This document shows, piece by piece, positions 1 through 44,575 of a DNA stretch of 64,000 nt. Every line of letters starts with the position of its first letter. The first letter of the stretch is position 1. A program made the translations under genes and the position numbers. Source of the DNA: Inonotus obliquus (taxonomy: Eukaryota > Basidiomycota > Agaricomycetes > Hymenochaetales > Hymenochaetaceae); the NCBI GenBank assembly GCA_032164295.1, contig JAJHTX010000001.1, positions 2,728,001 to 2,792,000 on the forward strand, in the 5' to 3' direction. Below the pieces are notes generated by a model, which was given only the letters and a program-made list of their open reading frames with translations, did no database searches and was not told the origin of the DNA.

Positions 1-3000
1 CGCCGGGGTGAATAGAGAGTCGACAAATGTATCGAGCAACTTTTGGTCGAAATCACTGTCAATACGACCACCATATACAGATTGCTTGACGAGAGTCCGT
101 ACAGCGTCCCAAGGAATTGAGACGGGATCCACGTTAGTCCTTCCGTTCGCAACGGAATTCAGCCAAACGTCTATCGTTCCGAACGCGGCATTCATGTCCG
201 AATCATTGAAGTCGTACTTCTTACTCCAACCAAGTGGGGCATATCGCAGCCGTTCCTGGACGATCGCGTGGAACCAAGCCAACAGGAAGTATAGGCGCGA
301 CTTCTCAGCAGGGCCCTGATTAAGACGAGTCTGTGGGATGCTACGCAATGAATCTAGCAGGTTAGCCTTAATTCCCGGTGGCGGCTCGTTCATAATGATG
401 CGTGACTGCCGCAAAATGTTGACAGGAATGACCGGATTCGCCTCCATAGTGAGGAATAAGCGGAAGTTGCGATTGGGGTTCAACGTCTGCAGCTTCTTTT
501 CCAATTGTCCCAGCCATGACGGTGCGAGGTGAACGTTCTTCAAAAGCACCCATGTGCCTTGCCTTGCTGCTATTGCAATCGCTTGGTCCGCTAAGGAGAA
601 ACCCTCCTGAGAACCCATGGCGACCGATGAGCACTTCACGCCGGACGTTTGCACAAGGCCTTCAACGCGATAGCTTGCATCATAACCAGGTACCGATACC
701 AAAGCAAGAGGCGTGGCAGGAGGCACCTCCTGAAGGACCACATCGGCCAGATTGTAGTCTGATTCCGTCGTTAGATCTTTATCAAAAGCGGTTCGGAGGA
801 ATGTATCCATGGACTGCACAAGTCGATCCGGTCGGAAGCATTTGATTAGCAACACATAACGGAGGGCATTAATGACGGCTATTACATTCGTTAGTCTAAT
901 AGGCATAGAATGTGAATGTGAAAATACTAACCAGGAGCAGACTCCCATGGTGTTGGTGTATACTTCTCGGGTTCCGACGACTGAAGGAATGGCACCCACG
1001 AGTCCTGGTTGTTACGTACATGGTCCAGAACAGGCTTAAAGAGAGTATGCTTGGCATAGCTATTGAGGCGCTCTTGCTGTTCCGATGAGAGAATGGAAAG
1101 CTCAGCAGATTCTCCAACGGTTCCTGACGGAAGCACGCCTTCACCACTCTCCAGAAGGAACTCGTATTCGTCAGTGATATCATCAGCACTGCGAAGTTTG
1201 GCTTGCGCGAGGAGCGTTGCAAGCATAACGTGGTCTTGGTGCAGAAGCGCTCTTGAGGTACGCTTGAAGACGACAAGGAACAAGTCATCGAATAGAATTC
1301 GCCGTCGGGCGGCATGATCAGTAACGTTCTGAAGATGAGGGTTGTGATGAAGGATGTAGTCGAATATATCAAGGAAGAAGGAAAGAGAGAATTGATAGAA
1401 GTGATTGACGAGGTTAAGCTGCTCGAGAATGAAGAAAACGGAGCTGCACGCCTGAGCGATGGGCAAATATTCAGCGGTCACTTGTTCAACCTCGCGCATC
1501 ACATTGTCCGTTTCCTCGACCTTGCGCGTAATGTCAGCAGCCTCCTTCTTTAGCGTCTCCAGAGTATTGATGACTTTGTCATCGTCTAATATATTGCCGG
1601 TGGACTCGTTCAATGCCTGCAAAAGGAGTTTCTCCAGGGTTCTCAAGCGCAGCCGGAATTCGCCCTGAATCTTCATAAGATCCGTCCTCTTGCGTTCGGT
1701 GTCTGGTCTTTCGACCTTGAGTACCTGGTCTAGTGTCTGGCTCTGCAAACTGCTACGAGTCATAGTGAAGTTTACAAACGTGACTCGACTGCAGATGTCA
1801 GGAGAGAACTCTACTGATGGATCCCTTGTTGAAAGGAACATAGTGAAGGATGGCGAGAAATCGATATCCTGGCTTCCAAGACGAATGAGAACACGACCAC
1901 CGGTTCGGCGGATCTCCTTGTTGAGAACGGCATTGAGAATGGGGTCTAAATGCTCCACATCCTGGATCAGCAGAGGATTTCCGAAACGAAGAGCGCTTTC
2001 TAAGACCTTGAGGAAGGCATCATCCAAGAAGCTGGTGACAGTAATCTTCCGATCCTTATATTCGTTGAGTAGGAAGGTCGTAGCCTGTCCAGTAGGGTCG
2101 ATGATCAGAGGGTACCGATTGAATCTCTTGAGCATGATGGCATTCTCGGTGCAGAGGCTGTCCGCAGGCAGAGACTTGGACTGCCAGCTCAGACGCTCGT
2201 CTGCTGTGGAAAGATATTCGGGGAAGGACAGCTCTGACTTGAACTTGACATGCGCGTCGGAGAGGTGACCCGACCATTCGTGCCACATTATTTCTCGATA
2301 GTGCTGGTCGAAGAATCCGCCGTACGCCAGGAAGGCTGCTGAGAGTAGCACATCACCCACGATAGTGCTCATTTCCTCGTCGAATGTTTGGCTTCCGGCC
2401 TCCCAACGAGCTCTCTCCGATGACAAGCTGTCAAGCATGCGCATACTCCGCTCCACTTTATTTTCGACCCTCTCCATTTCCGCTTTGATGGACTGAGTCT
2501 CACTAATAAGAAACGCATACTCCTCCTTGTAAGTGCGGATGCTGGCTTCGAGCTCTTCAATCATCTTGATAATCGTCGACGCCTGCTTCTTCGTATCCTC
2601 GGCTTGGTCTTCCAACGACTGCACCTCGTTGCGAAGAGGCTCTACTTTGTCCAGGATTTCAGAGAAGCGCACCTGCGCTATGACCCACTTCACAAGAGGA
2701 CCGCAGGCCTTACTGGCACGATTCACGGTCTCAAAGTTGAACGATGGCCGGGCGAGGAATTCTCGCATCATAAGCTCTCGCACATGCTTCGTCATTTGCG
2801 CGTTGGTGTCGAAATTGACGATCCTCTGAATGAAGTCGTCTCGTCGAATAATACCCTGAACTGTCCGCCAACTGTCAATCTTATGGCCGAGGACTGTACA
2901 GACAGATTCCATAGCAAGCTTCACGGCCTCCGGAGGGTTGGCCATGGCTCGCACTTCTTGAAGATGCTGCCTCTTAATGTTACCGACGGCAGCCTGCGCA

Positions 3001-6000
3001 TCGAGCACAGCCGGTTCCGCGTCTGCCAGATCAGCCATGACAACTTCTCGCCTTTGCTTGATGTGCTTGTCCTGCTCAACTAGAGCCGCTTGAATCTCAA
3101 TAGAGGCTGATTTCTTCTGTTCGGCCTCTTGCTGATCAGAGACCATGCGTTGAAGCTTCTCATTCGCCTCCGCATTCTTAGCTTCTAGCTGTCTCCGCTT
3201 GATTGCCAGACTCTTTCGCAGCTCTTCGACCTGCGTGACTGTATCCTTGAGCTTGTCGAGACCAACGTGGAGATGCCGTTGCTGCTCTTCAAGTTCGTCC
3301 CTCTTCTCGTTGTAGAGCCTAACATAGTGCGAGATACTGGATCGATGAACGTCAGCAATTCACATACCAATGGACGTAAAAATCCAACACTTACAAGTCA
3401 AGGTAATGTCTTGGCGTTACGTAGTTGTATCGTCCTTGACGCCTGCTCAGTTTCTTGTTGATCTGATATAGTGACTGATGGACATATACGAGGGCATTGA
3501 CAACAGCTTCACGGTGGCTAGGTGGCAAGACCAGTTGGCGGTACGCGATTGGGAAAAACTGTGGTGCTATATATGACGGAAGGTCCAGATCCAGCGTTCG
3601 AGTCAATTCAGAGCCGACTTGATAGAACGCCTGATCAGGCCAGTCTCCGAACCAGTCTAGGACGCAACGGTTGAATAAGGCGGGTGACGTGGCTGCACGC
3701 GAAGCCAGTCCATTCTCGGGAGGATTCATAGTGAAGACGACGTGCAAGTTCTTTGCGACTTGTTGAGTGAACCACTTGTACAGCTCTTCATGAGAGTCAA
3801 GCATAAGCCCATCACGTTGCGATCCTTCCTTGCAGGCCGTCATCAAAGCCGAATGCTCATCGCCTTCGAACAAACCGGGTACCTCGGCATTAGCAAGAAG
3901 AGTATTCATCCTCTCCAGGAATCCAGAATCCAGAACATTTGACTCATCCATGATGAAGCATATTTTCTCCCCTTTGCAGCCTGCTCTGCGGAGAACCGTA
4001 CGCAGGTCTTCATCGAAATCTTCTCCTGTGTACTTGTTAGATACTTTGATCTGGAAGATGCTGAGACCATTCATCCAGGCAACGAAACGAGACAACGTCG
4101 TCTACAACGGGGCACATCAGAATTATGAATTCATACAGAGTGTACACCTTCAACTTACCTTGCCACTTCCGCTAACACCAATCAGGAGCAAGTGACCTTG
4201 TATCTGCCTGAAGACCCGATCGATACGGAGAACATGGTCCAAGACATCGTTGAAGAGGACAAGCTGTACATCGAGTTCTTCCTCATGGAATACTCGGAGA
4301 CGTGCTTTGATGTAGTCCCGTAGAATTTCCCGGTCGACAGATACATAGTGCTTGGACGTCCAATTCGAGAACAATATAGGCCTTGATAATGCTTCTTCTT
4401 GAATTATTGTCGGGAAGTACGTCATAGCAGTTGAATCGATATTCTCGTCTGTCCAAACCTTTTCATCTTCAGAGACAAGCCTGTCCTGGAACAGACGAAG
4501 GGCTTCGTGCGCCCAGACGCGGACGAGTCCTTCGACAGAGAGCATTTCGAGCGGCTTAATAGCTTCATAAATGCCCCGCACCCAACGCGTCAACTCACGC
4601 GGACTGTAGATATAATGAGCCTGGATGTCCGACGTGAAGCGCTTCTGGGACGCCAGATAGAAGGTCACCATAGCGTCTGTAAGCGGCTCCGAGTATGCGC
4701 GCAAGTTCGGGACGACTTTGAGCATGGCTCTATTGTAAGTACCATAGATTTGTTTCAGTGAGATTTCTCCAGGATAGTCGACCATGACCAACGGAGCGTG
4801 TCGCAAGAATCTGTGCGAGAGTGGAACACGACCTGGATCTGTAGGAGGATTACAAGCACCGACGAACTGAATTCTCTCCAGCCTGACCCACGCCATATCC
4901 GACGTTCTGTAATAACCACCGCATTCGACGAGTTGACGCAAGAACGAGATGACACGCTGCGTCCCATACTTGTCCGTTGCTGGCAGATTGATCTCATCGC
5001 AGAACACGACGAGCCATCTCCCGATCTGCACAGGAGCCAGGATAACACCATTGGGCGTCTTCCTAAACTCACAATACTGCTCAAACGTCTTAAGAATGAG
5101 CTCGGGAGTCGTCGCACTGGAGAAGTTGAGTCCGACAACCTCCATGTCCGGCAACTTCCGTAGAGCGCTGAAGAGTGTCATGGTCTTTCCCGAACCTGGA
5201 GGACCGCAAAGCATCAACGGTTTATGCTCTGACAACCACGAGTATAGGACTTCTTCGTGACGTACGGTGTCGATGGTGGGGACCACGACATCTGATGCTG
5301 TGACAGCATGTGCCTCTATTTCGATGACGGGTACTCGTGACGACCATGATATCCATTCCCCTGTCGCAACTTGTACGTCGTAATCAATCAAAGAGCTACC
5401 AGGTGAAAGCAGAGGCAGATCAATTCCCGTTTGCTTCCTCAAGAACTCGCCAAGTTCGGCTCGCAGTTCAAGACGCGCATCACCCGAAAATGCCCAAATG
5501 ATGTTGACCAATAGCCGCTTCGTTACGTATTGCTCGATCTTGTCACGGCTGAGGGGGAAGTCCGAGTGTTGTATATTGTACTCGAGAACGTTACGCGCGG
5601 TCTTGTTGATCAGCGAAAACAACGTGTTCAAGGCTCTGGTGGCCGTGAAGTCCATGATATGTTCTATGGACTCCGAATACGACAGCGCCGATTCGACAAG
5701 GTCACCGTCCGTGAAATATTGTTCCAGGATACCTGCGATTTCCTTCTGGGTACGAATGTTGGGAGACTCAGACGAGTCAGAAGCGATAGCATCGGTTCGT
5801 CTCAAGGCAGAAGGCTCGAGGGACTCGTCTTCATCTGCGTCTAGCGGAACCGTTGAAAGGGTATCCAGATAGTGTCGGTAGACCATGCTCGGTTCCACAA
5901 CGTCCTCACTGAACCAGATCATACCACATCGACTAACAGTCGCAAGTGTCGCATACTTCAGATGCTCGACCTCGAACATGATACGAACATTCGGAGGAAG

Positions 6001-9000
6001 ATTAAGTCGTTCACCATTCGGCAAGGTCAGGAGCTTGTTATCATCAAGCACACTGTTCAAGTTCTCTACCCACTCCGGATCAACGTCGCCATCGAAAATA
6101 ATCCAGTGACGCTTGCCACTTTCACCACGGACATCATCGACGATCTTGCGCAGAATATGTGTGAAGAGACCATCGTTCCACTCTCGGGTAGTCGGATCCA
6201 ACGTCCCATAGAGCGCCTCCTTATGAATCGCCTTCGGATCAATGACATACGCAACACCTTCTACGCCATCGAGACGCTCGAGTGCAGCTAAGAGCACCCT
6301 CCATGCGTTCGTCTTCCCACTTCCTGAAGATCCAACCATCATCAAACCGTGCTGGATCTTCTGAATCTGGTAGAGCTGCAAGATTTTGGCGATCCAACGT
6401 TCGCCCGGTACCAAGCGTTTCTCAGCACATACTTTCAGGATCTGTTCGCGCAGAGCCTCTAGATCAACAGGTACGTAATCAACACCAGGGAAAACGTCCG
6501 CAAGGAGACTATCAGAGGGACTCAGTTTATCGTTCTTTGGTAAATATTTCCACAAGCACGCACCTCGTTAACAACGGAACGTCATCTGCCACCAATTTCG
6601 GGACGATCGTTTCAGTAACGCTCTGAATGAGAATGACTTGCTCTTGGATCGCATCGGAAAGGTCCGCCGTACCATCCGCCTCATTCGCTCGTGCATTCAT
6701 GAGACGTTCTCGCTTAAGGATACCAGCGCTAGCCAGGACAGCCTTCAGAGCACGGAGACCAAAATCATAATGAGGCTGAGGCGAAAGCTGTTCGGCGCAG
6801 AGATTGAAGAATGGCACAATCTTCGAGGCAAGGACTTCGGCTGTACGGAAACCTTGAGAGAACAACATCACCTGTGCGATAAGTTCTCGATCCGGTCTGG
6901 TCATCGCCATTGGTCGGAAGAGTTTCGTTAGATTAGGGGGTAACGCCGTACGCCCGGCATACCCGGGGTTCGTCGTGATGAAAATACCGATATTTGAGTT
7001 GATCTTGAGACTCTTTCCGACGAGCTCGATCTCGGTCTGCGGATTCTTCGCCAATGAAGCTAGACCTTGCTGAATGGTTTGTACCTGCTGCGACACGGCA
7101 CTAAGGATACGTTCTTCAAGACGATTGAATTCATCAAAGCATCCCCAAGCACCGACTTGACAGAGTCCGACGAAAATACGTCCCATCGCTTGGAAATCGA
7201 ACGTCTCGTCGCAACAGAAGACCAAAACGAAACGCCCGAGTTGCACACCCAGCGCCTTCACTGACTCTGTCTTCCCAGTACCGGCGGGTCCGAAGGGTGA
7301 TCCTCCAAGTTGGCTGTCTAGAGCCTGCGTCAACGTCAAGTAACACCTATCCGTCAACGGTGTCTGGACGAGTCTGTCGGGCACACCAAGGTATTCCCAT
7401 CCGTACGGGAATGTAGCATTCGCCACCCTAATCGAGAGTCGGTCTAGTGTGTTCTCCCCAGTGCGATCAAGGTAGAAGCGCATCTGATAGAGCCATGCGA
7501 AAGCCTTATTATCGGAGACGCTTTGCTGTATCAAGGAACGGATAACATCACGTTCGTGAACGAGTTCGGTGATCAAGTGCTCGCACTTCCGACGAGTGAT
7601 AGGATTAAGATCTGTGAGCACGACGTCTGCAAGAAGGTCCAATCCTCGGCGGACGGTTTTAAGGGGCGCGCTCGGAGTCTGCCCTGTTTCAAGATAGCTT
7701 TCGACAGAGGCTGTCCATGCCACCTGAATAGCAAGTGAAACAAGCTGAGCGGGATACTTCTCTATCCAAGCAATGAACGTCTGCGCGGTGAAAAGCGCTT
7801 CGTTTCCATAGAACGTTTGCAGCTCCTCGACGGCATCACATAATAGGTACGCAAGATTGTTTCGCATCTCCGCCTCCAGTTTTGCGAGCCAATCATTGAT
7901 CTTCGGATACTCCTTGAGCATGATAGGTGCCCGGAATCGAATCTCCTCTCCTTCGCGGGAGACAATGCCGCTAATCTGGGTTTCTTCCTCGTCCAGTATC
8001 ATTGTAGCGATACCCGCAAACATCTTCTTCAGATGCTTCATGATCCTGACGATGGTCTTGGAGTTGCCGATAATTTCCAGAAGGTCCTCGTCTCCGACGA
8101 AATAGAAACGAGGGAAGGACGCTCGTTCTCGCTCCAAATATTCACCCAAGGCTTTCTGAATCTTGCTCAGCAGATCTGCAAGGCGCTCCAATGACTTCTG
8201 GATACCCGGAATATTCAGGACCTCTACGACGTATGGAGTCTTGTTAACCTTCTTCATAACGGTCAAGAATTCTGAGTTGATGCTTTGGAAACGATTTGAT
8301 TCGACAGGAAGCAGGTGCTTGATGTCTGCGCTTCCAGAAAATATGCCTTCGAGATACACCCATTGGCGCTGTACGTCGATCCAAACATCTAGTAAATTAT
8401 TGATATCAATGCAATCCAGATCTCTAGCTATATTGTACGTACCAAAAAGGACATGAATTCTATTCAATCTATCCTCCCAAGCCGACGCATCTTCCTCAAA
8501 GACTACAATGCAATTAGCCATAAACCACATCTTCTAGTAATTCACGAGTCACCTTTATAGTACGGCGATAGCTTCATAGCCGTCAGTGAATTGAGATTCT
8601 CGCTGCATTTAGTAAACAAGTCGTCCCAGCCGCTACACAATCCCCTTCAGCAAGACGTACTCGAAATTTAGGAAAAGGAAGTACCGGATGAGCCTGGTCT
8701 TGTTTTGGTAATTGACAAGATCGAGTGCATAACCAGTCCACGTCTCTTTGACTTGTTTGATGTATTCTTCAAGCGCCATCTACAGCATAATCCGTAAGCA
8801 TCGGCCCATATCATGTTAAGATATGTGTACCTCTCCTTGCGCCTGAATTATGACCTCCTTTATGAGCGATTCATTCTTCTTGAGATCCATGTCGTATACG
8901 TTCCCCAAGGTCATACTTTATAGTATCAAGTCAATCGGATAGATGTACACAGTATGTTTTGACTTACGTTGTCAGCATAACGGGAGACATACGCAGAACC

Positions 9001-9903: not shown

Positions 9904-10091
9904 TGTGCCTTCCGGAGTGGAAGATTTTGGCAAAGGGGTGACGCGTTGTAGTTACTGGTTTGTCGTGTCGCGACTGGTGTCCAAAGAAGGAAGGAGGTCT
10001 GTGTGTTACGCGCCTGCCTAACTTTTGTCCTTCAACCTCGACTGTAATCATCTTTTCCGGCTACCTCTTTTCGACAAGATAAACTGCAAAG

Positions 10092-10720
10092 ATGCATTCA
10101 CGCCAACAAAAAGTGATGGTACAACCCATCGTACGTAACTTCTACACTTTCAATCATTCGTTCGATTATCAGGACTCAAAGTCGCATTTTGCAGAATGTC
10201 ATTTTCAGATTCTTCCAACAAGTGAGCTATAGCATTGTACAACCTTGACTCCGATACCGAATTTCTTACGTGGGTTTAATCAGAAAACAAGAGTATCAAT
10301 ATGGCTATACGATAACAACGAGATGCGATTGGAGGGTCGGATCGTTGTACGTAGGCCTCCTGTTTCTTTTTCTTCCTTGTCGATGGCCGTTCCGCAAGCA
10401 AGCCCCATGTATCGGGACATAAGCCTCAGACCGCGCCTTCGGCGTCCTCTCATACTTGACATACACTCCTGCAACTTTGTCCTCCCTACCGCTCACATGA
10501 TACTAATTAATATTTTCCTACGCAGGGCTTTGATGAATTCATGAATGTCGTATTGGACGACGCCGCGGAAGCGTACCTCAAGGAAGCTAAGCCTCGTAAA
10601 GAGTTGGGTACGCAAAGCAATGTTCCATTAGTCTGAACCACCCATTAAATCCTCTCTTCTTTGACAGGACGTGCACTCCTGAAAGGAGACAACATCACGC
10701 TGATCCAGGCACTTGTATGA
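10092..10720 (+). CDS. SME1: Small nuclear ribonucleoprotein E (SmE)
   Basis: One of the seven Sm proteins that ring the U1, U2, U4 and U5 snRNAs in the spliceosome. Five exons (10092-10130, 10195-10221, 10284-10346, 10526-10607, 10668-10720) sum to 264 nt, giving 87 residues against about 90 in the family. The protein starts MHSRQQKVMVQPI, then carries Sm motif 1 (VSIWLYDNNEMRLEGRIVGF, with DEFMNVVLDD following) and Sm motif 2 (GRALLKGDNITLIQAL). Its ATG lies 188 bp from the divergent ATG of the dynein motor half, so the two probably share a bidirectional promoter. The dynein gene is likely the newcomer at this promoter (see findings). Confidence 0.95.
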
Positions 10721-10854
10721 AACCACCTGCTTCAACCCATTCCCTTGTTTTGGTGCCATGTTTCATGCTAATCTGTACTTCCTGGCTCTCTCATGATTAC
10801 AACGCATTGACAGAGAATATGCAAGCGATACATGTGGTTAAAGCTTCTAACCGG

Positions 10855-12242
10855 CTACAAGTTATAAACAGGAATGAGGCGAGTCAAGTTAAGCGCTTGT
10901 CGGCACAATGGACATTCAGCCTACACAAAATTCATAGTAAGAACGCAAATCATTACCCATGTCATACAAACCGAAATTACGACAAACCTACCTTCTCCCT
11001 TCCCCATCCCACAATACACGACCAACAAAACAAGTGTCCACACTCAGTTGCACAGCTCGAAGTCCTCTCTTCTAAACAAAGCGTGCAATTTCGTCTTGCT
11101 CGAACGTGTTCTGGGATTTGCGAGAAGTCTATTAATGTGTATCCATCTTCTTCTGCTGGTATGGGTTCAGCGGATTCGTCAGGCGTGTTTTCCAGGACTT
11201 CGGTTATTGGTACGCCATCGATGGATGCTTCAGTTGAGTCGTGAGGTTGTAAGACTTGTTTCCCCTTCGATGACGTTTGTGTCGATTGAGTCGAGTCTTT
11301 CATAGAGTTCTTCCGGAACTCGCGGACTGCAGCGAACAAACGGTGTGAAAGTCGGAGTATGATGAGGATACCTAGTAGTGAGTACGAAGGTGGACGAGAA
11401 TTCGGGTTCTCCGGTGTTGACGAAATCTACAACAACAAAAAAGAGTGAATACGTCTTTATTTTTGTTGAGCAAAAGTAACGCGGGGGCACGTACGTTCTT
11501 CACACCAAGTACCCGGTCAACCAAACCATAATACACTCCCCTGAAATAAAACGCAGCAAGGTTGATCTCGGAAATGACATCCAGAATACTCGGTAAACGT
11601 CTTAAGAGGCGTGCTATCCTCTCATTCCCACCACTTAGCTGGTTCTCGAAACGTGAGATAGCATATGCTGGAAATGCGGGAAGGAAAACAAGTGCAGCAC
11701 GTCTCTATGCTCATGGTGTCAGTCATTAGCCACTTCTGAGCTTCGAAGTAGTGGGTTTACTCACCTTAGCAGAAGGTGTACCCCGATCATGGTTGGAATA
11801 TTGCCAGATATTCGTGTACTCCTCACCCAGAGTCTGTCGTGCTAAATGAATGACCGTTTAGTGCACACCAAAGCTTGACCGATTTGACGCCTACATGCCT
11901 CTGCCGGTAGTAAGTCCATAATACAACAATTTAGACAACAGCTCTAGTTCCTTATCCCAACGCGAGAGCCAACGGTTACCTATGTTTTATTTTAGACGTG
12001 TACCTCAAGCATCGCATCAGGGGGCGCATGCATATGCAATATGCATACCTAACCAAGACCTCAAAACATTCTCCGCTTGTTCTCGAAGAGAGTAAACATA
12101 GAATAAATCTCGCTGATTCGCACGAACTACTCAGTCAATCAGTTGACACCCACATAGCAAAGGTTATTATTCCTCACACACCTATTTGAGCCTGTTGGGC
12201 GGGTGGAAAACCAGGTATTTTTGTCCTCCTCGAGCTTGACAT
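10855..12242 (-). CDS. PEX10: Peroxisome biogenesis factor 10, RING E3 ligase
   Basis: Peroxisomal membrane E3 ubiquitin ligase that acts with Pex2 and Pex12 in ubiquitination and recycling of the import receptor Pex5. Seven exons (12242-12182, 12126-12049, 11979-11899, 11841-11765, 11704-11495, 11426-10992, 10920-10855) total 1,008 nt, 335 residues, a normal length. The N-terminal PEX2/10/12 domain shows [29 protein letters not shown] and [13 protein letters not shown]; a hydrophobic stretch ([15 protein letters not shown]) follows. A C-terminal C3HC4 RING reads [22 protein letters not shown], with the last two cysteines on the final exon. The ATG has a CACCATG context. Intron 3 (11,898-11,842) needs a GC donor (AG/GCATGT) to keep the frame [13 protein letters not shown]. 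It overlaps no neighbour; the Mgr2 homologue starts divergently 78 bp away. Confidence 0.93.
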
Positions 12243-16838: not shown

Positions 16839-17504
16839 CGTCGTCCAAATTTTCAAGCGCGTCGAATTTAGCCGTGTCATTCCGCCGATCTACCATACGC
16901 GTACGTAATCAGCTCTGATAAGTTTTTCTCTACTTACTCTAGAACCAACTCCATGATTTATCAGAGACAAGCTCGTGTATGTCTTGATTGCTGCAATAAT
17001 CTCTTAAGGAAGACATCCCCCCATGCTAACACTACCTGACGGACCGTCAAGGAGATATACAGCCTTTGCCATACAAGCTCCCTGGCTTAGATGACTTGCT
17101 GCGAAGCACGGAGAGTACGGCGTATGCCGTGTACCAACCGCTCGCAACGGCAGAATGGGCGTCGAAAACGAAGGAATCTGCCAAATCCGGATGACATCAG
17201 TTGACGGTGACACTGCCAAAACGTCGCTCCGTTATTCTCGACGCCGAATGCCCTGAAACGGTCATCGGCATTCGTTCTTTCGGGTAGTGACGATCTTTTT
17301 AGGTCACAAAAGGAAGTTCGCCACTGCCAAAATAGCACATATAAAACTTTAACGGCGCCATTTACCAACCCAACGCCATATGCATATATCCATATGCCAT
17401 GCACGCTCAGTAATATTTATTATCCCTCGCTGTATATGCGGCCTCACTCTTTGCGCCAGTTTTTCCCCTCATTCTCTTCCTACTAGTACTTTGCGCTCTG
17501 CGCA
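16839..17504. other. Divergent intergenic region
   Basis: About 670 bp between the starts of homoserine kinase (-) and the Ser-rich gene (+); it should contain both promoters. A CT-rich tract at ~17,440-17,490 just before the Ser-rich ATG is typical of fungal transcription starts. Confidence 0.5.
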
Positions 17505-20500
17505 ATGCCCGCGCCTCTTGTACTCCCCAACGACAGAGGACACGGGCGTGATCATTCGTTCACCATCGAACAGTTTGAACATCTTGTCTCCACCGCTCTC
17601 GACGCACAGGCTTTACCTGACAGCGCTCTCTCGTTTTCTTTCGGTGGGAACACTTACCCACCCTCATGCAACTCACCACGCTCGACACATTCTAAAGACA
17701 GGTCCCGAAGAAAGACGGGAACGTTTGCAAGATTGAAGGACGCGTTCGTCAGAAAGCAAGGCGCAAGTGACATATCGTTCACTATGCCACCCGAGACGCG
17801 TCGTTTCGCGTCCTCCTCTGCTCCCGCCCTCTCTTCTTCTCCTCAGGCGAACGCAGCCTCGACATCGACCTCATGTGTCAGTCTTGAACTTGGAAGAAAT
17901 CAATTTCACATTCATTCCAAATCCTCCACGTCAACTGGGCCTGTACCATTCACGCCACCCCCTCTTCCATCGCCTAGATTTTCCAATGGTACTGTTCATG
18001 CATATTCTTGAAAACTATGTTATATCTAACTGTCTTTCAGCTGCTGTTAATCATGCCATAGATAAAGACCCCTCATCACCCGGTATCTTCCCTCAGCGTG
18101 ACAGGAGCCACTCAAGCACCAGATCCTTCCTCAATCTCAAGCCGCTTACCATACCCAAGCTCACCAAGCAATCTTCCGGACGACCTTTGCCTTCTGATTC
18201 TCTGCCAACGCCTCCGGAAGCGTTCGACGCCATTCGTTCTACTCCAGTGGTCAGCGAGGATTTTACCCATGCCGAGAACGAAGGTTTGCGCTCTTTCTTT
18301 GACGACAGTGGATTCGAAGAAGAGCTCCGTGTGCCAAATGTGCTAAGGAAGAAATCAAAGTCGAGCTTCCGTTCTTTCTTCTCCTCGGCCACCTCCGACG
18401 GCCTGGCTTCTTCCCGTTCGGGCTACAAGCACGATAAAGCCCAGCCCTCTGTTCCTGATGCTATCAGCAAACCTGTCAGAACTCGACGTCGCAAATCCTC
18501 TAGAGCAGAAGAATTATCACTCATACAGAGTCCCGTGACAGATGACGGATCATCTTTATTCTACTCCCCTCCGGCAACAGCACAGAGCCTCACCGAGGGC
18601 CACTCTGCCTTTGAATGGGGTGACTCCAGGATGGCCTCTGATACGGCCTCGACTCGGAGAAGTAAGCGGTTGACTAACTGGATTACTCGTTCCACCCCAC
18701 ACAAGGTTGAGCAGCTCATCCGCAATTATCCCCCAGCCTATCCGAGTCCGACATCACCATTGCCTCCTACTCCCGACCTTCCAAATAGTAAACTGCCCGA
18801 CAAGGCGTTGCATAAGCCAGGTCATGTCCATGGAACAGTTGGCGTTGGACGTTCCGTTGAGAACTCCATTGATCCAACGGAACTATTGAGCTGGCGTATG
18901 CCGAATTTGAAGCAGCAAGTTAGCAGAACGTCGACGACGTCGAGCGCTCAGGCAGTGAGTATTCGTTTGTGGCTTTACCTGTAGCAACGCCTTTAACTAT
19001 CTTTCCTAGCATGCACTTGGACGACCTTCACGCGGTTCAATTCGTGAACGGTTAGGCCTTGGCCCCCGACTTCAGCTACATGTTCCCCTTCCGTCACAGT
19101 TCATCGCCGAATCGACAAAGAAAAAACTAGATAACGGAGATTATTTTCTGCGGGGATCTACCAGTTCTCGGAGTAGGAATGCAGCCCCATATGGCGCCCA
19201 TCCATTGAGCGGACGACCCTCTACCTCTGCGAGTATGCCTATAACAAAACTCGCGTCTGCATCACTAGTTTCTTTACGAAGCATTGCAACCGTGACGGCT
19301 AAGAGTAGAGGCTCGTGCGGAGACAACGAGTTCGGCTATCACAAAGAGGACGTGCTCGATGTGGACCGAGCATTCACTACCGAGGATGACCCCTTTGCGG
19401 CAGATCCTCTCACCCCAATAACCCCGCTGACGCCCCTATCCCCAGCAATTCAAGAACCGGTAACAAAGTGTCGTTCCTTCATGCAGCTAGAAAACGACAC
19501 CCTTGCGCTGGCCGGGAGCCCTGCGACTCCTATCTCTGCTCCAGCGTCTTTACCAAGCTGGCACTATCGTTTGGGCTCGAGCTCAAACGTCTCTTCGCCA
19601 GCATTGGCTTCCTCTTCTACTATACGTAGGGCTATCCCCAGCTTGAACGAGACCAAACGAAGTGAGAGCCCAGCAAGTATTCGAAGCGGAATGCCAGCCT
19701 CACTCGTTGATCCTTTAAACTCTCACCCGAGATCACCATCAGTTCCCCTGTACCCGCTCGCCAGCCGTCGTAAGTTACGTCGGGTCATTTCCAGGGTACG
19801 GAAAAGTCAAAACAACAGTGGGGAACACAGGACGAGTGATTCGAGCGGACAAGAACGAAATGCATCCAGTATCGCTGGCCATACGGAGAGCCGCCCGCAT
19901 TCGCCTTTCCCGATGCTTGCTCTCAGACCAAGCATAGCGAAGTCTGTGCCTGATATTACGCGGGAGAGTAGAAGGTCGAGTACTGCCTCGTTTGTGTGGG
20001 ATGGGACGGACGAGCAAAATCAGGATTGTCCCGGTGTAAATGCCGCTCACCCGATCAGTCATGAACAACACAGCTCGGAACATGCGGTATCATTTTGTGC
20101 TGAGGCCGCTGATGCTTTCCATGAGGTGGCCAACAACGTCCCTTCTGAGCTTCCCAGGCGAGATTTACTTTCTCCTACAGCCTGGCTCCTAGACTCAGAT
20201 GAGTATGACGACTTTGAAAAGCAAGCAGTCGAAGTCGAGATGCTGGCAAACAGGTCCAATAAGCTTGGCCTCGATATCGCTTCCTGTGATAGAGAAAGAA
20301 GCCGATGCGATGTCGGGAACGTTGACGACAAAGAATCGCAAGCGAGATCAAGGACCACAGTGATGGTGGACATGCAGTTCACCTCTCCGTCACGATTCTC
20401 CCGACCTGGTTTTGAAATCGAAAGTGAAACAGAGGCGGAGGGAGATATTACAGTTTTACACTCGTCACAAAGCTGGCCACTTCCTCCTCATTGTACTGTG

Positions 20501-21178
20501 GTGGTTGATGAGGAAACCGGGGAAGGATACCATGTTGTCGAACCTGTCGTCGAGGTAAGCAAATAGCCCATATCCCCAGGCCAGGGAAGGTTGCTAATTT
20601 ACAGTATTTGGATCCTACAGTTCGTTCAAGCCGGTTCTGTTGCACATTCTCCGAGGCATTCGATTCGATTTCCCAAGAGACGTTCTGATCCTACATCTAT
20701 AGGAAGCCATTCCGGTCGACGTTCAAACGGTAGCCCATCCCTTGCGCGGAAGTTGAACAGTTCCCAGACCCGGCTCATCACAGAGCAGTTCGGCCATGCT
20801 TCCGGTGGCGACACGTATGCTAATGCGGCATCCTCACCTAGTATGGGCATTTCCAGAGTATTGCAAGCTCATCAGCTGAAGGAGAGAACCCGCTCCGCTA
20901 CGTCGCTTGCATCAGCTAGCGCCCAATCACACGAGACTTCTAAGACCGCTTTCTACTCTGCGCGTTCGACTGATTCGCGGAGCTCGAATAGATCGACCTT
21001 CTCATTTACTCATCCTCATCAAGTAAGAAAGCATTCTCGGGAAGGATCGTCGTATTCTTCATGCTCGCGCAGTCCGCCGGGTTCGGCAGATCATCATTCA
21101 AAGCTTGCCCTGAAGTCGATCGGCAACGCTGTTGCTACGAAGTCATCTGTGTTGGACGCTCGCGGAAGTGCCTATTAA
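17505..21178 (+). CDS. Large Ser-rich low-complexity protein, function unknown
   Basis: Four exons (17505-17988, 18041-18954, 19010-20554, 20621-21178) sum to 3,501 nt, 1,166 residues. All three introns are canonical and keep one frame. The protein is dominated by Ser, Pro, Arg and Thr with scattered basic patches (RRSKRLTNWITRSTPHKV, RRKLRRVISRVRKSQ), suggesting a largely disordered, phosphorylated protein. The N-terminal 35 residues (DHSFTIEQFEHLVSTALDAQ) look like a short amphipathic helix and are the best candidate for a conserved element. Repeated TPITPLTPLSP-type motifs near residue 540 could be proline-directed kinase sites. No enzymatic domain, membrane segment or zinc finger is visible. 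The length, splice regularity and absence of internal stops argue that it is real. Confidence 0.8.
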
Positions 21179-21758
21179 TGCGACAACGTCGTCGTGCCTG
21201 CGTTCATCATTTTCCATCCGGTGAAGCCCGTATCATTGTTTTGTCCGTCGGAACGGATGTTAGCATTCTGACATCGCTATGGGAACAAGTGGAAGGACGA
21301 ATCCGTGCCGGTTTCGATCCTTCTATGCTCAATGAATGCCCGAAGCAATTGTATCATCTCAGAAGGGGGCCATCAACAGCACGTTTCTGACCAAGCTCTT
21401 TCTTGATCCGGTCTCACGACTAGTCGGTAGTCGAAATGGTGTTCCGTCATTCATCAATGGATATTCTCAGACAGTCTTGTCATTTTCCAAACGCTCGTTT
21501 ACATAATATGCTCAGCAATCCTTGAAGTCCTTGATAGCTGCTTTCGTCCAGTCCTTACTCTCCCACTTGACGTGTACTCAAGAAGGGTTCACTCTGTTGT
21601 ACTACACTCGTTTTTTTTTGCTTTGACTGCAGTGGGTCTTGTTGGTTTTATCCTAATTAAGTGTAATGGCAATATTAATTTGTACAAAAGTACTTCTACC
21701 AGCGAATGAAGAGCAGAGAGCAAAATAGAATTCGTCCCGTAGCAGGAACAAAAGCATC
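21179..21758. other. Convergent intergenic region
   Basis: 3' flanks of the Ser-rich gene and the Kre9-like membrane gene; includes a run of T near 21,610. Short reading frames only. Confidence 0.5.
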
Positions 21759-23631
21759 TTAATAATAGGAACGATGGTTCCTTGTATACGGAGAAACTGG
21801 GGCATCATCACATCGCCAGCGATGGTAGCTCATCTCCCGAACTGAAGGTCTAGGATGTGGTCGTAGCGGGGATCGAGGTTGTACCGGATACGAGTCATAG
21901 CGTGCTATCCTAGGAGAGTCTATCAACGGCGAGACATAATTTGATAGAACGGTATCCGTTGACGAAGCATTATCATCTTCGTCGTGAAATCTACCAATGG
22001 TATGATGATCATGATCATAACCAATTTGATGCCTTCGCGCATTGCTAGTCTCCCCGTGATAGGAATGCAATGCTCGTGGGGATCTTTCGCTAGAAGCAAC
22101 TGATGAACGAGAATGAGGTCGGTAGCCTGGTCTTAATGAGAGTGGGTGCTGGTGATGACGGTGGGAATAATGCGAAGGAGTTCGAGTTACCGGCGAGGTG
22201 TAATTGTGGCCAAGATCAGATGGCCATTCGTAAGTCCGCTCAAACGTCTCCGCGCGTTCTCGGCGGACATCTCGGCGCGGGATAGGATACCGAGGTACGT
22301 CACGAGGGTGATAACACATTGAATCTTCTCTTCGTAAATCGCCAGGCCGCGAAAATGGCATAGCCCGGGTCCGAGTTTGCATCGCATCATCACCAGCGCA
22401 AAGTTCATCCATGGCCTTCTCGATATCACGGTCATCAATCACAGAACGTTTGGAATTATGCTTTGAGATGGATGGTGGTGTCTTACGACTTCCCGCGGAG
22501 CGAATAGAGTCGTTCCGTTGGAGATTAATGAGATGTGCATTTCGAGCGCGTTGGGCGGCCAATGAACGCCTATGAACGACACAGAGCCCGATACATGCAA
22601 GAATTGTTGCTCCAACGAGAGAGATCGGAACGGCAATAGCAGCAGTAGGCACTCCCGCTCGAGAAAGTACTGCGCTTTGACCAGGAACGAAGTCGCCGTC
22701 GTTATTGACAGTGGTATATGGATTCGACTTCTCGACTGGCGGAGTTCGCAAAACGGCTGTTGTGATTGAATTTCCGTGTGTCTGCATAGTGGAGTGTGGC
22801 GCGTTGGCCAAGGAATCAACTTTTGCGTGAGAGCCACTGGATGCCGTCGGTACATTATGCTCTGGAGAAGCACTGGGCCTTTCTGATTCAACAACAACAG
22901 GCGTTGTATGACTTGCCGGCCCTGACGCCGAGGCTGATCCCAACTGTTCGTCACTATGTCTAGGTGCACCATGTAGTGGTGCCTGAGCAGAGGAGTCTCC
23001 GTTGGGCGTTCTGATACCCCTCGAACCATCTGGCTCGTCATACTCTGGAGTTACTGGCTCAGACTCGCCACTTCCTGCGACACCTGATTTTGAGCTCTTC
23101 TCGCTTTTCCCGCCAGCTGATAGATTATGCATCCTCAGCAACGACATCGAAAACATCAGAAGTTCTACACTTACGATGCAACACGAATGACGGAGACTTT
23201 GCGACGTTTCCAAAGTCATCTTTCATTCTCAAGTAGAACTCGGAGCCTGATGCAACTTCAGGAACGGCCCTAAATGAGGTCAGCCATAAAGACAAGGAAA
23301 TTTCAGAAGTAGAATGACATTACAATGAAAATAATGATTGTTTCCCTTCCTGTGTAACCCTAGGCCAGACCAGTTCCCCGCAATCGCTATCATTATCCGC
23401 GTCACCCTCGTCAGAGGTACATAGAGCGACGGACGGCGAGATCAGCGTCTTCTTAGAAGTCCATTCCGCTTTAATTGTATCTCCTGGCACGAACACATCT
23501 CCGTTAGATGGCTTTGTCCACACGACCCTGAGGCCCTTGTTGTCAGATTTCCTGCTATGAGCTTCAACGGTACACAGAGAGCACATTAGACCGACAGTAA
23601 GAGAAAGCACCAGGCTTCTTGAAGAGAGCAT
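21759..23631 (-). CDS. Single-pass membrane protein with Kre9/Knh1-like extracellular domain
   Basis: Three exons (23631-23324, 23269-23175, 23116-21759) sum to 1,761 nt, 586 residues. A signal peptide (MLSSRSLVLSLTVGLMCSLC) is followed by an Ig-like domain with the Kre9/Knh1 pattern: VVWTKPSNGDVFVPGDTIKAEW, paired cysteines, and a second-exon strand VPEVASGSEFYLRMKDDFGN. Next is a Ser/Pro/Thr-rich, probably O-glycosylated stalk, a transmembrane helix (AAIAVPISLVGATILACIGL) and a ~270-residue cytoplasmic tail rich in Arg, His, Tyr and Ser (HYSHRHHQHPLSL). This is the layout of a cell-wall-linked surface receptor or adhesin. Which ligand it binds cannot be told. The ATG at 23,631 precedes the signal peptide directly; codons upstream have no ATG. 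Confidence 0.75.
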
Positions 23632-23832
23632 TTCAATAGAACAGTTCAAGGCACAAGCCTGCTTGCTTGGAACGTTATAGCCAGCCTAAAAACCTAGAAA
23701 CACGGAAGAAGGATAAGTTTCATCGTAATCATGAGAGATGTAATGTCAGCCCAGCCCTGCATCGAATATTAGTGGACCTGCTTCTCAAAGCACAGCCAGT
23801 GTCTCAGACCTGAAACGTCGTGGTTAGGTTAG

Positions 23833-37430: not shown

Positions 37431-37920
37431 GGATTGATAATATAGAGACCCTACAAGTGAGTAGAGAAGAGAGGATCGACGTGCATTACATCATACACTT
37501 GTCATACAAACGTCGATCCACTGGAATTTGTCCGGCCCTGAACAACTGGAACCTTTTCTTCCTGAAATTGTTTTCCTTCGAATACATCCTCAACCAGCGT
37601 CCGACAACAAGTCGACGTAACTCTCAGTATCGCATATGTCAGAGGGTATTCGGCTCAGAGGAGAAATCAAAGACTCTGTTGTAGGGCCCAATTGAGCCGG
37701 AGCGTCTCTTAGGTCGGACTTCTGGAATTAGGAGACGACGATGAGAGAGGTTTGACTAGGTGGCTCGTACATTTTGTAGTCTGAATATGCAAATTGTATT
37801 GTGGGAGTGTATGGATCAATGACGCTCCGAAGAGGTGCATCATACCCGACGTCATCACCTCACTCAACTCATTCAAAACTCTTCCATGTTTTCGTGCATC
37901 AAAAGACAACCAGTACAATC
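37431..37920. other. Divergent intergenic region
   Basis: About 490 bp with promoters for the dienelactone hydrolase (-) and the LEA-like gene (+). No gene seen. Confidence 0.5.
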
Positions 37921-38385: not shown

Positions 38386-38508
38386 TTGATGTAGTCCCGG
38401 CTGAGTCCGCTCGTTTCACGCATGTTGTGCATTACAATATCTGCATTATGGTGATATTAGATACGTACATCCAATGGTTCAAGTAACAAAAACGGGTCTT
38501 GTACAACA

Positions 38509-39752
38509 TTAATACGAATAGTGATACTTCTTTTTGGCGAATCTCTCGATAAGTCCCGGGAACAGCGTATAGTAGAGCATTGGCACGACGCGATAGAATC
38601 CTTGCATGAAAACGTCCCGCTCTCGCCTATCAACAGCGCGTATGCACCTTTCCGCAACGATTGTGCGTTTCAGACCTGTACGGTTAGGGTCTGCTTCACG
38701 CACAGACCCGGAATCTACAGCAGAAGCGCGGAAGTTGCCTTCAATTGTGGAAGGCAAGATGAAAGTGAAATGAACGGATGGATTTTCAATCGCGAGGGAT
38801 TGGTAGAGGAGAAGAGATGCGGATTTTGTTGCTGCGTATAACGCGCGTGTGGGTGCAGGCGCGACGGCTGCTAGGGAGGATAGAAGAAGGACAGAAGGTG
38901 AAGGTGACGTGCGAGCGAGTAAGGGTACCTAGACGCAGGAGTTAGCAGCCAGAGTTGGTAAAGACAAAAAGAACACGTACGAAAGTGAGCCCGGCGATGA
39001 GTGGGCCATAGAAGTTCCCTTGGAGAGCAGCTCCCGCAATGCGTACACCCGCCTGGATACCGTCGAGGTTGGCATCTGGAAGTCTTTTGTTCCCGTCCTT
39101 TCGTTCTATACCAGCGGTTTCGAGAAGTGGCTTGAGGGACGAGACACCTGCTATGACGGCGACCGTGTCAAGGCGTCCCCATTCTAGTGAATTCAGCTCA
39201 AGTTAGTCGTTCATGGGTATACTCATGTACAACGGGGTACCCACCAGAAACAATCCTTTCCCGAACCTTCACCATATCCTCCGCCTTCGAGAAATCCGCA
39301 ACTTCAGCAATAATTCTCACCGCTCCTTCCTTCCCCTGGGCCTTGTGTAATGAACTATACTGAACGCATTCCATTCTGGCACTTTCCACGTCCTCACTTC
39401 TCGCAACAAGGCATACATAAGCTCCGCGTTGTGCATACTGCATTGCAAGCTCCTTTCCGACTCCAGAACTCGCACCTAGAATAAGTACATGCTCTTCCGT
39501 TGGGGGTACCTTCTTCTGCCTTCTTTTCCTCATTCTCAATAGACGTCGATGGATTAAGAAAAGCAGCGAGAGTAGCGGTAATGAAAGAAAGATGCGCTGC
39601 GCCCCAGAAAGGCTACGGAGGTAAGACGTGATATTGTGTACGGACATCATAAATAGCACCTGGAGAAGAACGAAAGATGCAAGCTGAGGTGATAGACGGA
39701 GGAACACTTGATTTGGTCGACGCGGATCAGCACAAGTTGATGATCGGCGCAT
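38509..39752 (-). CDS. Membrane-anchored short-chain dehydrogenase/reductase
   Basis: SDR-family NAD(P)-dependent oxidoreductase. Three exons (39752-39245, 39183-38981, 38928-38509) sum to 1,131 nt, 376 residues. A hydrophobic N-terminal helix (IFLSLPLLSLLFLIHRRLL) with basic flank suggests ER anchoring with the catalytic domain in the cytosol. Cofactor loop VLILGASSGVGKELAMQYA, ARSED after the second strand, an NAG-like motif VIAGVSSL, Ser in LLLSSLAA and the catalytic YAATK. The overall plan is like DHRS7B or 3-ketodihydrosphingosine reductase, but I cannot assign the substrate. A second in-frame ATG (MSVHNITSYL) about 35 residues in may be the true start. It lies head-to-head with the dynein tail gene. 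Confidence 0.88.
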
Positions 39753-40540
39753 TGGAGTCTAAATTTAGATATTTCAATACAATATGAATATTTTACAATT
39801 TTTACAGCTTTTCGCAATGAATGGAGCAACAGGTATATCCTAGTGCCAGTCAAAATAGTCTTAGCGCACAAATGCCAGCAGGAGCTTTTGAATAAGCACG
39901 GATTGTATAGCAGCTCGTTTCTATCTATACCATCTCAATCCAATGACGCCGAGGGCTGAATAAAGACCGAGTCTGCTAGGAACATCCTTCGAGAGCCCGT
40001 TAGTATCTATAGACTACTTCAAGTTCCCCGCAGGTCTAGAACTACAGCATGGGAACATAGTTTTTAAAATAATCCACTCTTCGAAACCTGAGGCACCCTC
40101 AGCGTAGGAAAAGATCATAAAAGAAACTCATAGTATTGATATTCCTTCACAGCTGCGTACAGAAGCGACTTCGGCAAGTTCTGGCACGGTGTGGTGAATT
40201 CTACGCTTTTTCTCCAAATTTAAAGTTTAAAAATAGGAGTTTATTGACGCGCTTAAGTAAGTGTTGCCCTTTATGGGCACGTACCGACGCGTAGTCTGGC
40301 ACGAACAGGTCGCTCGACGTTCACCCATCGCTGTAGACGGCGACAGTGGCTATACCCAGGTACAGACATATGCACACTTCAGCACTCGATCTTGATTACT
40401 CATATATGTGTAGGAAAGGCCGACTAAGCGTCTCATCACAACCGGGAGGCTCCTCCGCAAATCACTCTAACGCCAAATACGCGCCAGATTTCTCTTGAAA
40501 CGCGCCTTTCGAAGTCTTCCTATCACGATCTACACACGAC
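39753..40540. other. Divergent intergenic region upstream of dynein tail gene
   Basis: About 790 bp, AT-rich near 39,760-40,250, between the SDR and the dynein tail starts. If the inversion model is right, this is the ancestral promoter of the once intact dynein heavy chain. No gene or repeat seen. Confidence 0.5.
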
Positions 40541-43500
40541 ATGGCTTCACTAGAACTACCAAGTGTGCCGCTGACACCTCCAACGAATGGGACACTCGCG
40601 TCATCAGACGCGTTGGTGGACGGCGCATCCCCAACAAGTACATCTGCGCCGACGACGTTTGACCCCTCTCTCATGCGTGCATATCTCCTTGCTCTTCTAC
40701 CACCGGTGTTTGGCGCTACGAAGGGCGAGATTGAGGATCAAGTACTTGATGCGGAGTTTGATGATCGTGTCGCGCGTTTTGCAGGTGAGGGAGGTGGACC
40801 TTTGTATATCGTGAAGAGGAAAGAGGAGGTTGAAGGTGCGCGTGCATACTTACTGCTATAACGCTAGTGCTGACAGGTCGCTGCAACTCACGCCTAATGT
40901 ATCTTCAGACGAAGCGCCTCCGTCATATTCATACCAGATCACCTCGTCTTTAACTTACTCACCTGCGCACGTCATGACCATGGCACTCATCAAACGAAGC
41001 GCGACTCTCGATCCGCTCTTATCACTTGCACAGCAACTCCATGTAATCAACTTGTTTGGCGGTGACGAGACGCCCTACGAGAGCTTACACTCTTTAGTGA
41101 GCGGCGCGGTGAAGCCATGGTTTGAAGCCTTTGTTGGGGCGCGAGGAGGTGGAAAGGATGGTGATAGCAAAATGGGTGCGTAGTAGTTAGTGTCCATGAA
41201 GGGGAAGTTTTTGATCAACACTCTCGCTACAGGCATACCAATCACAAAGAAGAAGTTTGCCGAGCTTGAGCTCTCCCTCCTACATCTCCAGCAAAACGTT
41301 GAGATCCCGGAAACACACCTGATCATCCACCCTGTCATCCAACGTGCAGTGGAGCAGGCTCATGCACAAAATACCCGTCCGAACATCTCTCTCATCCCCT
41401 CCAGGACTCTCAACGACTCAACCTTCCTTAATACACTGCAAGCCCATGTGAACACGTGGATCAAGTCCATCCAGGCTGTAACGAAGCTGTCTCGAGATGT
41501 ATCATCTGGAACAGCGTCACAGGAGATTAACTTCTGGTTGAGCATGGAGCGTGCATTGGAGGGCATCGAAGCACAGTTGAGGAGCGATGATGTGAACATG
41601 GTTATGGATTGTTTACGAAATGCGAAGCGATTTCATGCAACTGTTGGTTTTATTGCGGATACTGGGCTGAAGGATGCTACAGACATTGGTGTGTTTAACA
41701 GTGTTTTCTATCTTTCAGAGCCATCTCTAACATAGCATCCACAGTGCACAAATATAATCAGCTCATGAAGGATTTCCCGCTGAATGAGCTACTCTCGGCA
41801 CCTGACCTGGACAAAATCCAGGAATCTGTATCGCTCATCTTTGGCCACATGAATCGCAAGCTGAAGCTCTCTCCCTATCCTGTTCGACGCGCCCTCCCTC
41901 TCGTTGAAGCCATCTCTCGTGATTTTAACGATCAACTCCTTCGAGTACTCACTTCACATCGACTTGCCTATCAGCCTTACGACACGTTCGAACGCCTACT
42001 ATCGCAGACTATGGCGATTTTCCGCACATGGGATGATGAAATCAAAGATTTCACGAACGTAGCGCGTGAGGTCACGCGTAAACGCTCTGAACGCTTCATC
42101 CCCATTAAGATTCAGCCCGCACACGGGAAGTTACAGGAACGCATTCGTTATCTCCGAGAATGGCGAAAGCAGCACGAGCAGCTTGCTGTGATGACAGGAC
42201 CCACAAAGGGCCTTGGCTCTATCGGGAATGATGTTGGTGGAATGGATATGGAGGAGGAAGTGCGGGAGGCATATGAAATTATCAAGAATATCGACATTCT
42301 TGATGTCTCTACGGGTATGTTCACTTAGATTCATGAAGCTGCATGATACTGATCTTCCATTCAGACGGAACGGAAATATGGGTGACGGCTGAGAATGCAT
42401 ACAATGAGCGAGTTGCGCGAGTAGAGAACCAAATTATCTCTAGATTACGTGACCGATTGGGCACGGCGAGGAATGCCAACGAGATGTTCAGGGTGTTCTC
42501 GAAGTTCAATGCGCTCTTTGTCCGCCCCAAGGTAGAGGATCAACCAGCTAGTCCTATCCATATGTCGATGACTCACGAAACCAATAGATTCGTGGAGCAA
42601 TCCAAGAGTACCAGACGCAGCTCATTGATTCGGTGAAGGAAGATATAAAAAGACTTCACGACAAAGTGAGGATTCCGTATTTTGCCTCTTTTGACCCATG
42701 CTCACGACGATCATCCCAGTTCAAAACTCAATACCGATTCTCTGAAGCTTATCATATGTCTCAAATGCGCGACCTTCCCCCTATAGCAGGGGCGATTATC
42801 TGGGCACGGCAAATCGAGCGCCAACTGCTTACCTACATGAAGCGCGTCGAAGATGTATTTGGGAAAGGCTGGGAACTGTACGCCGAGGGTCAGAAGTTAC
42901 AGTCGGAAAGCTCTGCTTTCCGAAAGAAGCTGGATACTCGACCAGTATATGACGCGTGGCTACATGATATCAACCGACGAGATATGGGCGTCACTGGTCG
43001 GCTTTTTGAGATTGTCCGGTTACGAGGCGGTGGCTACCAACTCGCAGTAAACTTCGATCCGCAGATCATCACACTTTTCAAAGAAGTCCGGAATTTGCTA
43101 TGGTTGAATTTCCAGGTCCCACATGCTATCACTAATATGGCGAAGGATGCGAAACGTGTTTATCCACATGCAGTTAGTCTGATGGAGACTGTGCGGACAT
43201 ACGGTCAAACACTCGACCTCGTGGAGAAGAACAAGGGCATTGAGTGGCTGGTTGCTGAATATCGTAATGAAGCGCAACGTATGATTACTCGAGGGATGAA
43301 TATTCGTTGGGATTACTTCGTGAATCAGTATGATACCGCACGATATGTACCATCGGCGGATGGTCGGGACAACAGACATGTTCAGTTCGTGCGAGAATTC
43401 GCCAGCGTTGTTTCCGTGCTTCAAGTTTGTTCTGCTTTCCTCTATGTCGATGGCTGGTCACTGACTAATCTTGACTGTAGGACAAGACGAACGGTTTGAT

Positions 43501-44575
43501 AGACCTGTATAAAGACATTCTTCGAGCGGTGGATGACTTATCGACGTGTCCATACACTCATGAAGCATTCGCAGAACTCCTTGGCCGTATTCAAGCCGCT
43601 GTAAGGTCTTCCGTCATCGGACAAGTATCTTTCTAACAACCTTTTAAGATCGACCGACTAAACTTGGAGGGGTATGCTAATCTCGAGCATTGGGTGGCTG
43701 AACTCGACAAACGAATTGAGGAGATACTTTTAGCCCGGTTAACGTCGACTATTCAGTTATGGTGCACGGAGTTTGACCGAACAGATGATGACACTCGAAC
43801 TACAGTGCTCCGCGACGTCACGAATAAACGACGAGGGGACAAGAGGTATAAGGATGACAAACACCTAGACGGACATCTTGTCATCAAGCCAATCATCCAT
43901 GAGATTCGCATACAAAACCAAGTCATCTTTCTCGATCCACCCATTGAGTACGCACGCCAAACATGGATCAAGCAGTTGCACGAGTGGTTGGCAGTTGTCT
44001 GTCGGCAGCAGCGGATACAAAGCTCAAGATACGAAATCGGGTTACAGATGCAAGTGGGAGTTGTCGCGGAGACGACATATACTTCATTGGTGAGTTGATC
44101 GTGTTGGATGCATGTTTCCACGACTAGAACGTTTCTTTAGTTAACACGTTTCGTCGATAACACGCTGGAGCGACCGTTTGCCCTCATAGAGAACAAGGTG
44201 CAACAACTAAAGGACTACGTTGGAAAATGGCTTCAATTCCAATCACTATGGGACCTCGAATCGGAATATGTCTTCAATCGTCTGGGAGACTCCCTTGCGC
44301 ACTGGCAACAACTCCTTACAGAAATCAAGAAAACACGCTCAACCTTCGACACGTCCGAGACTCAAAAATCATTCGGTGCATGTGTGATTGACTACGAGCA
44401 GGTGCAAGCGCGTGTGAATGCAAAGTATGACACTTGGCAACGAGACATCCTTAGCCGCTTCGGTGTTAAACTTGGTAATGCGATGAAAGAGATGCACGCG
44501 CAGATTCTTAAAGCGCGCAACGAACTTGAGCAGCATTCGATAGATGGTCTTACAGGGCCACCTCGAAGATTCTGA
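40541..44575 (+). CDS. dhc1: Cytoplasmic dynein heavy chain, tail half (Dhc1-type)
   Basis: N-terminal stem of the dynein heavy chain, responsible for dimerisation and for binding intermediate and light-intermediate chains. Ten exons (40541-40835, 40909-41175, 41233-41688, 41745-42314, 42365-42531, 42588-42665, 42720-43424, 43481-43600, 43649-44089, 44141-44575) sum to 3,534 nt, 1,177 residues. The DHC_N1 region covers most of it: [93 protein letters not shown], and [18 protein letters not shown]. It ends with [11 protein letters not shown], followed by nine novel residues (GLTGPPRRF) and TGA. The next conserved segment of dynein ([11 protein letters not shown]) is the start of the motor gene at 9.8 kb. 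No P-loop is present. The protein cannot be a motor alone. Confidence 0.96.

Follow-up and report, generated by a model that had tools for sequence, protein, structure and literature searches.

The 64,000-nucleotide stretch of the Inonotus obliquus genome analysed here (C1:2,728,001-2,792,000, hereafter the window) carries a dynein heavy chain in two separate genes, a tail gene (dhc1) and a gene encoding linker and motor (dhc2), the latter running out of the window (Table 1). The initial annotation had placed the tail gene at 40,541-44,575 on the plus strand and the motor gene from 9,903 outwards on the minus strand, and both placements were confirmed. Among the neighbouring genes, the name SmE was given on the basis of a motif that we take to be characteristic of this protein, and the RING protein next to it is presumably PEX10-like. 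The region 17,487-23,685 contains long open frames on both strands, measuring up to 518 aa from stop to stop, and a Pfam scan of four open frames within it gave no match.

Table 1. Genes and other features of the dynein locus (window coordinates; negative positions precede the window)
Feature	Position	Strand	Basis and remarks
dhc2, dynein linker and motor gene	start 9,903; stop at -1,239 (C1:2,726,761)	-	frames of the tblastn with an intact dynein
dhc2 first coding exon, ATGGAG, two codons	9,898-9,903	-	automatic model, predicted
Gap between the dhc2 and SmE start codons, 188 bp, head-to-head	9,904-10,091	.	candidate shared promoter
SmE-like gene (small nuclear ribonucleoprotein E)	10,092-10,720	+	start and first exons computed; last exon and stop by eye
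Pex2/Pex12-like RING protein	10,855-11,704	-	Pfam PF00097 above cut-off, PF04757 just below; limit at 5' end approximate
SDR gene, divergent from dhc1	38,512-39,758, limits approximate	-	Pfam PF00106 in the 39,201-39,758 frame only
dhc1, dynein heavy chain tail gene	40,541-44,575	+	1,177 aa, 9 introns, corrected model
dhc1 C-terminal extension GLTGPPRRF and stop	44,546-44,575	+	past the ancestral junction; relatives compared
MET2 (homoserine O-acetyltransferase), convergent with dhc1	45,057-46,645	-	sequence searches
VPS4, directly upstream of MET2	47,255-48,923	-	tblastn; best Vps4_C match of the genome, weak second on C3

The automatic model of dhc1 (1,195 aa, 8 introns) contained three wrong introns and was corrected against relatives to the model listed in Table 1. 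The automatic 1,195-aa model served as query in the PDB, tail-relative and join searches, and the regions near the split are unaffected by the correction. The corrected protein is 94.2% identical over its full length to its counterpart in Sanghuangporus weigelae (P0001), while the searched part shows 92% identity with Sanghuangporus weigelae and 90% with Fomitiporia mediterranea (P0002), a species which we take to belong to the same order as the window fungus. These identities place the fungus in the Hymenochaetales. In human DYNC1H1, residues 24-1160 are matched by dhc1 (PDB match) and the start of dhc2 matches from residue 1158 onward.

The junction and its new ends

With the intact dynein of Rhodosporidiobolus (P0122, 4,634 aa) as tblastn query, residues 86-1202 map to 40,884-44,545 on the plus strand in dhc1 and residues 1203-4631 to 9,815 down to -1,230 on the minus strand in dhc2, with no residue lost or doubled across the join. 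This exact abutment bears out the earlier statement that nothing conserved is lost or duplicated between the halves. Both the mapping of the intact dynein and the comparison with relatives put the split at the SIEG/SST junction and, taken together, the two predicted proteins amount to one complete heavy chain.

The genome that was searched comprises 36.07 Mb in 30 contigs, and in it the DHC_N1 domain matched only at the dhc1 tail and the DHC_N2 domain only at the dhc2 motor. Since each domain occurs at one locus, no intact dynein copy was found alongside the two halves. A partial duplication or transposition, followed by complementary loss of the redundant parts, would likewise end in two complementary single-copy halves, but neither domain search of the genome revealed a remnant copy and abutment to the residue without overlap would be an unlikely end of independent decay, which makes this origin very improbable in our view.

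A query spanning the split was searched against proteins of about 1,576-5,014 aa and the best 120 of 1,441 matches were examined. The join is contiguous in 118 of these 120 proteins, P0231 and P0240 failing the pattern. No Agaricomycete name was recognised among the 104 proteins that carry an organism name within these best 120 of 1,441 matches (the other 16 carry none), and identity in the join region is at most 70% in all 120, compared to 78-92% in the listed tails over the tail region, which is a different stretch. With no Agaricomycete name and no identity above 70%, a re-fused Agaricomycete gene was thus not seen among the matches listed.

The initial annotation had the tail end right after HSID, where in fact the stop follows nine codons later, behind GLTGPPRRF. 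It had the motor resume at SSTAAAV, a motif that is indeed present but is preceded by an eight-residue leader, MEVFAPSN. The tail extension is of the type GLVGxxRRF belonging to the Agaricomycete split dyneins. Written as GLxGxxRRF, it is strongly conserved among the listed tails and has no counterpart in intact dyneins. Within the best 120 of 336 tail relatives, the C-terminus reads RRF or RRY in 100, RRFG or RRFS in 5, RKY in 4 and otherwise in 8; two more are without the SIEG motif, their models ending there, and one is fused to MET2. An alignment of 45 of these 120 relatives has the G, L, G, R and R in and around the extension conserved to at least 90%. Organism names are available for 117 of these best 120 of 336 tails, 3 being unnamed, and all 117 belong to genera that we take to be Agaricomycetes. 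An AlphaFold2 model of the Sanghuangporus tail P0001, built on these 45 aligned sequences, was too poor for use (pLDDT 50, pTM 0.26) and gives no more than a hint that the cut comes after a long helix. For the human dynein tail, nine helical bundles are described, of which bundles 6-7 carry the light intermediate chain (PMC5473941).

At the other side of the split, the two-codon first exon predicted for dhc2 by the automatic model is directly followed by a predicted 67-nt intron (9,897-9,831). The dhc2 model starts with ME and then continues into NSST, as is the case for Agaricomycete split dyneins, some species in Table 3 of PMC4540427 being different. The published starts of C. cinerea and F. 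mediterranea (MEVR...) look like annotations reading into the same intron as the first one of dhc2. The gap separating the start codons of dhc2 and SmE is a candidate bidirectional promoter.

The nine-residue extension and the eight-residue leader, short new sequence on both sides as if the ends were improvised, speak for a fission in place, in which a stop and a terminator arose at the junction with an internal promoter and start behind it, leaving the halves in tandem until they were separated later. The absence of any lost residue at the split points in the same direction. However, PMC4540427 reports halves up to 500 kb apart and names no tandem pair in the parts considered here, and we regard this course of events as unlikely.

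Linkage and orientation of the two halves

Brunsch et al. (2015) described the split at the same codon in Agaricomycetes and Dacrymycetes, with the same extension and leader in their Table 3, and reported that the two halves share a scaffold at distances of up to 500 kb and are linked to matA, with orientation and intervening genes not conserved (PMC4540427). The initial annotation had cited dhc1/dhc2 of Schizophyllum commune as a published split and Ustilago maydis as one at another position, in agreement with this paper. The heavy chain of U. maydis (dyn1/dyn2) is also encoded by two genes, but is split in the fourth AAA module, and that of Wallemia is split after 1,979 aa, both being independent events (PMC4540427); Wallemia P0177, among the join matches listed, has a length of 1,979 aa. 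Compared to S. commune, the window shares the split codon, the extension, the type of motor start, the opposite directions, the location on one chromosome, the matA linkage and the number of dhc1 introns (9 in both), whereas the halves are 413 kb apart in S. commune versus ~31 kb here and dhc2 lies 586.5 kb from matA versus ~1.58 Mb here (PMC4540427). Fomitiporia mediterranea, with its 90% identical tail, has dhc1/dhc2 divided at the same junction (PMC4540427, Table 3). The matA linkage of dhc2 in the window fungus is physical only, with Homeobox_KN matches next to the MIP gene (C1:1.134-1.143 Mb), on the same contig and 1.58 Mb off. Separate from this MIP gene beside the mating-type genes, C3:525-544 kb of the same genome carries two peptidase M3 copies, inverted and ~15 kb apart.

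The main text of PMC4540427 does not contain the word 'inversion'. In the open-licence literature, judged by titles and listings, PMC4540427 was the one paper found to deal with the split dynein, no report on the mechanism of the split was found, and no paper was found there that treats dynein and homoserine O-acetyltransferase together.

As had been noted initially, the halves are divergent and about 31 kb apart, their start codons being separated by 30,637 bp. Both lie on one 4.36-Mb contig, at a spacing that falls within the 500 kb reported for the split-dynein class. The closeness counts in favour of the initial interpretation, a random locus falling within 31 kb with a probability of about 0.0017, but common ancestry on a single chromosome is enough to account for the linkage as such. 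The arithmetic of the proposed inversion is right, in that turning back ~34.7 kb restores one gene. What stands of the initial interpretation is hence a true split with linked halves on opposite strands, which one inversion formally restores. The weight given to this fit does not stand: any two opposite-strand halves of one chromosome, divergent or convergent, fit one inversion, so that the fit is weak evidence, raising the odds twofold at best, and opposite strands are expected by chance in half of the cases. The present geometry was rejected as proof of an original inversion for the same reason, opposite-strand halves always fitting one.

To look for repeats at the breakpoints, 9.5-10.3 kb was compared with 44.3-45.06 kb, and 8.8-13 kb with 43-49 kb, by blastn. 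Both comparisons yielded chance-level matches only (best E 0.07); none would be expected at such an age, and their absence is uninformative. Inversion as a process is made plausible by the matA inversions of two 70-kb fragments published for Flammulina (PMC3140503). A link between the SDR gene and dynein, or between SmE and MET2, in outgroups with an unsplit dynein would, if present, strongly support inversion. Its absence would say little, since a 2011 survey describes Agaricomycete synteny as degraded within the class and reports none with other fungal classes (PMC3219968).

The MET2 flank of the tail gene in other species

As a stand-in for synteny, we made use of mispredicted fusions of neighbouring genes, i.e. 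annotated models, by searching with the MET2 part of P0119 for proteins of 855-2,721 aa, which resulted in 24 proteins. Six of these 24 are, as we assume from their genus names, Agaricomycetes. MET2 is joined to the dynein tail in P0119 of Pleurotus djamor (the query, first met among the tail relatives) and in P0243 of Arthromyces matolae, and to VPS4 in P0241 of Phellinidium pouzarii (EW145_g3046) and P0242 of Clathrus columnatus; the remaining Agaricomycete fusions combine it with a GH47 gene (P0244, Tricholoma) or with another stretch (P0245). The GH47 gene was discarded as a candidate neighbour, since none of the GH47 matches listed for the window genome is near the dynein locus. Among the precomputed Pfam domains of the 18 fusions from outside the Agaricomycetes there is no dynein or Sm domain, and these proteins are uninformative on a SmE-MET2 link. 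In Phellinidium, the tail is EW145_g3047 (P0005), the next locus tag after the VPS4-MET2 model, an adjacency that is read from the tags and not from the strand. Judging from these gene models, the VPS4-MET2-tail neighbourhood is old, and on the tail side the flank may go back to the break itself.

This agreement of the VPS4-MET2-tail order with the Phellinidium models and locus tags also argues against an assembly artefact of the window genome, as do the length of the contig (4.36 Mb) and the conservation of extension and leader, both among relatives and in Table 3 of PMC4540427; we consider such an artefact hardly credible.

The relative orientation of MET2 and tail, by contrast, varies: in the window, VPS4 (-), MET2 (-) and tail (+) follow each other and MET2 and the tail meet end to end, the fused model of Pleurotus djamor reads tail then MET2 on one strand, and that of Arthromyces matolae reads MET2 then tail on one strand. 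Each of the latter two arrangements equals that of the window with one gene flipped. Three relative orientations of MET2 and tail are thereby found in three species of two orders (Hymenochaetales and Agaricales), two of them taken from fused gene models, and the layout has not been stable among relatives since the split, in line with the unconserved orientation reported in PMC4540427. Since the MET2/tail orientation varies, the direction of the tail gene is no relic of the break as it first happened.

These observations bear on the idea that the split was made by exactly the ~34.7-kb inversion, with the motor/SmE and tail/MET2 junctions both still original. It would account for the opposite strands, the exact abutment and the close spacing, and the MET2-tail adjacency is common to Agaricales as well. 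Nevertheless, orientation and intervening genes are reported not to be conserved, and in S. commune 413 kb separate the two halves (PMC4540427). The Pleurotus and Arthromyces models also disagree in how MET2 and the tail are oriented, and we regard this exact inversion as decidedly unlikely. Little credence is likewise given to a reading in which SmE-dhc2 and dhc1-MET2-VPS4 would be the two original junctions, the motor half having survived on the bidirectional promoter of SmE, an essential housekeeping gene, and the tail half by means of a short extension supplied by the new sequence and kept by selection as docking or stability element. The initial claim that the locus itself preserves the likely mechanism could not be maintained in view of the class-wide split, the unconserved orientation and intervening genes (PMC4540427) and the MET2-tail flips; as far as the compared gene models go, orientation is too readily flipped for the original event to be still readable from it.

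Origin of the split and its meaning

The explanation that we favour, with somewhat better than even confidence, is one ancient intrachromosomal break in the common ancestor of the Agaricomycetes, the 31-kb divergent layout being derived by later reshuffling and the tail-MET2-VPS4 flank being old. The heavy chain gene of cytoplasmic dynein-1 would have been broken once between the SIEG and SST codons, most likely by an intrachromosomal rearrangement, of which inversion would be the simplest kind. The tail half would have run into new sequence and thereby gained GLxGxxRRF and a stop, and the motor half would have gained a new start, the two-codon exon head-to-head with SmE, possibly with a shared promoter. 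Later on, the chromosome would have been reshuffled with the tail-side flank kept.

Dhc1 and Dhc2 would presumably assemble into one motor. The authors of the S. commune study report a potential co-localisation of Dhc1 and Dhc2 and assume that the two interact, but they also consider that Dhc2 might have a further partner (PMC4540427). In that species, deletion of dhc2 results in no nuclear acceptance in matings, whereas deletion of dhc1 leaves mating normal (PMC4540427), so that Dhc1 and Dhc2 may not always act together.

The split, the linkage and the opposite directions in Schizophyllum were already published in 2015 (PMC4540427), and the split as such is not new. What the present analysis adds is the old VPS4-MET2-tail flank, the orientation of which changes, and the head-to-head start of dhc2 with SmE. 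It is rare for a very large gene that is usually intact elsewhere to be divided without loss and to persist in both parts across a whole fungal class, as is the case here. Should the flanks turn out to be ancient, the break would be reconstructable and it would become testable how the orphaned half of a gene acquires a promoter.
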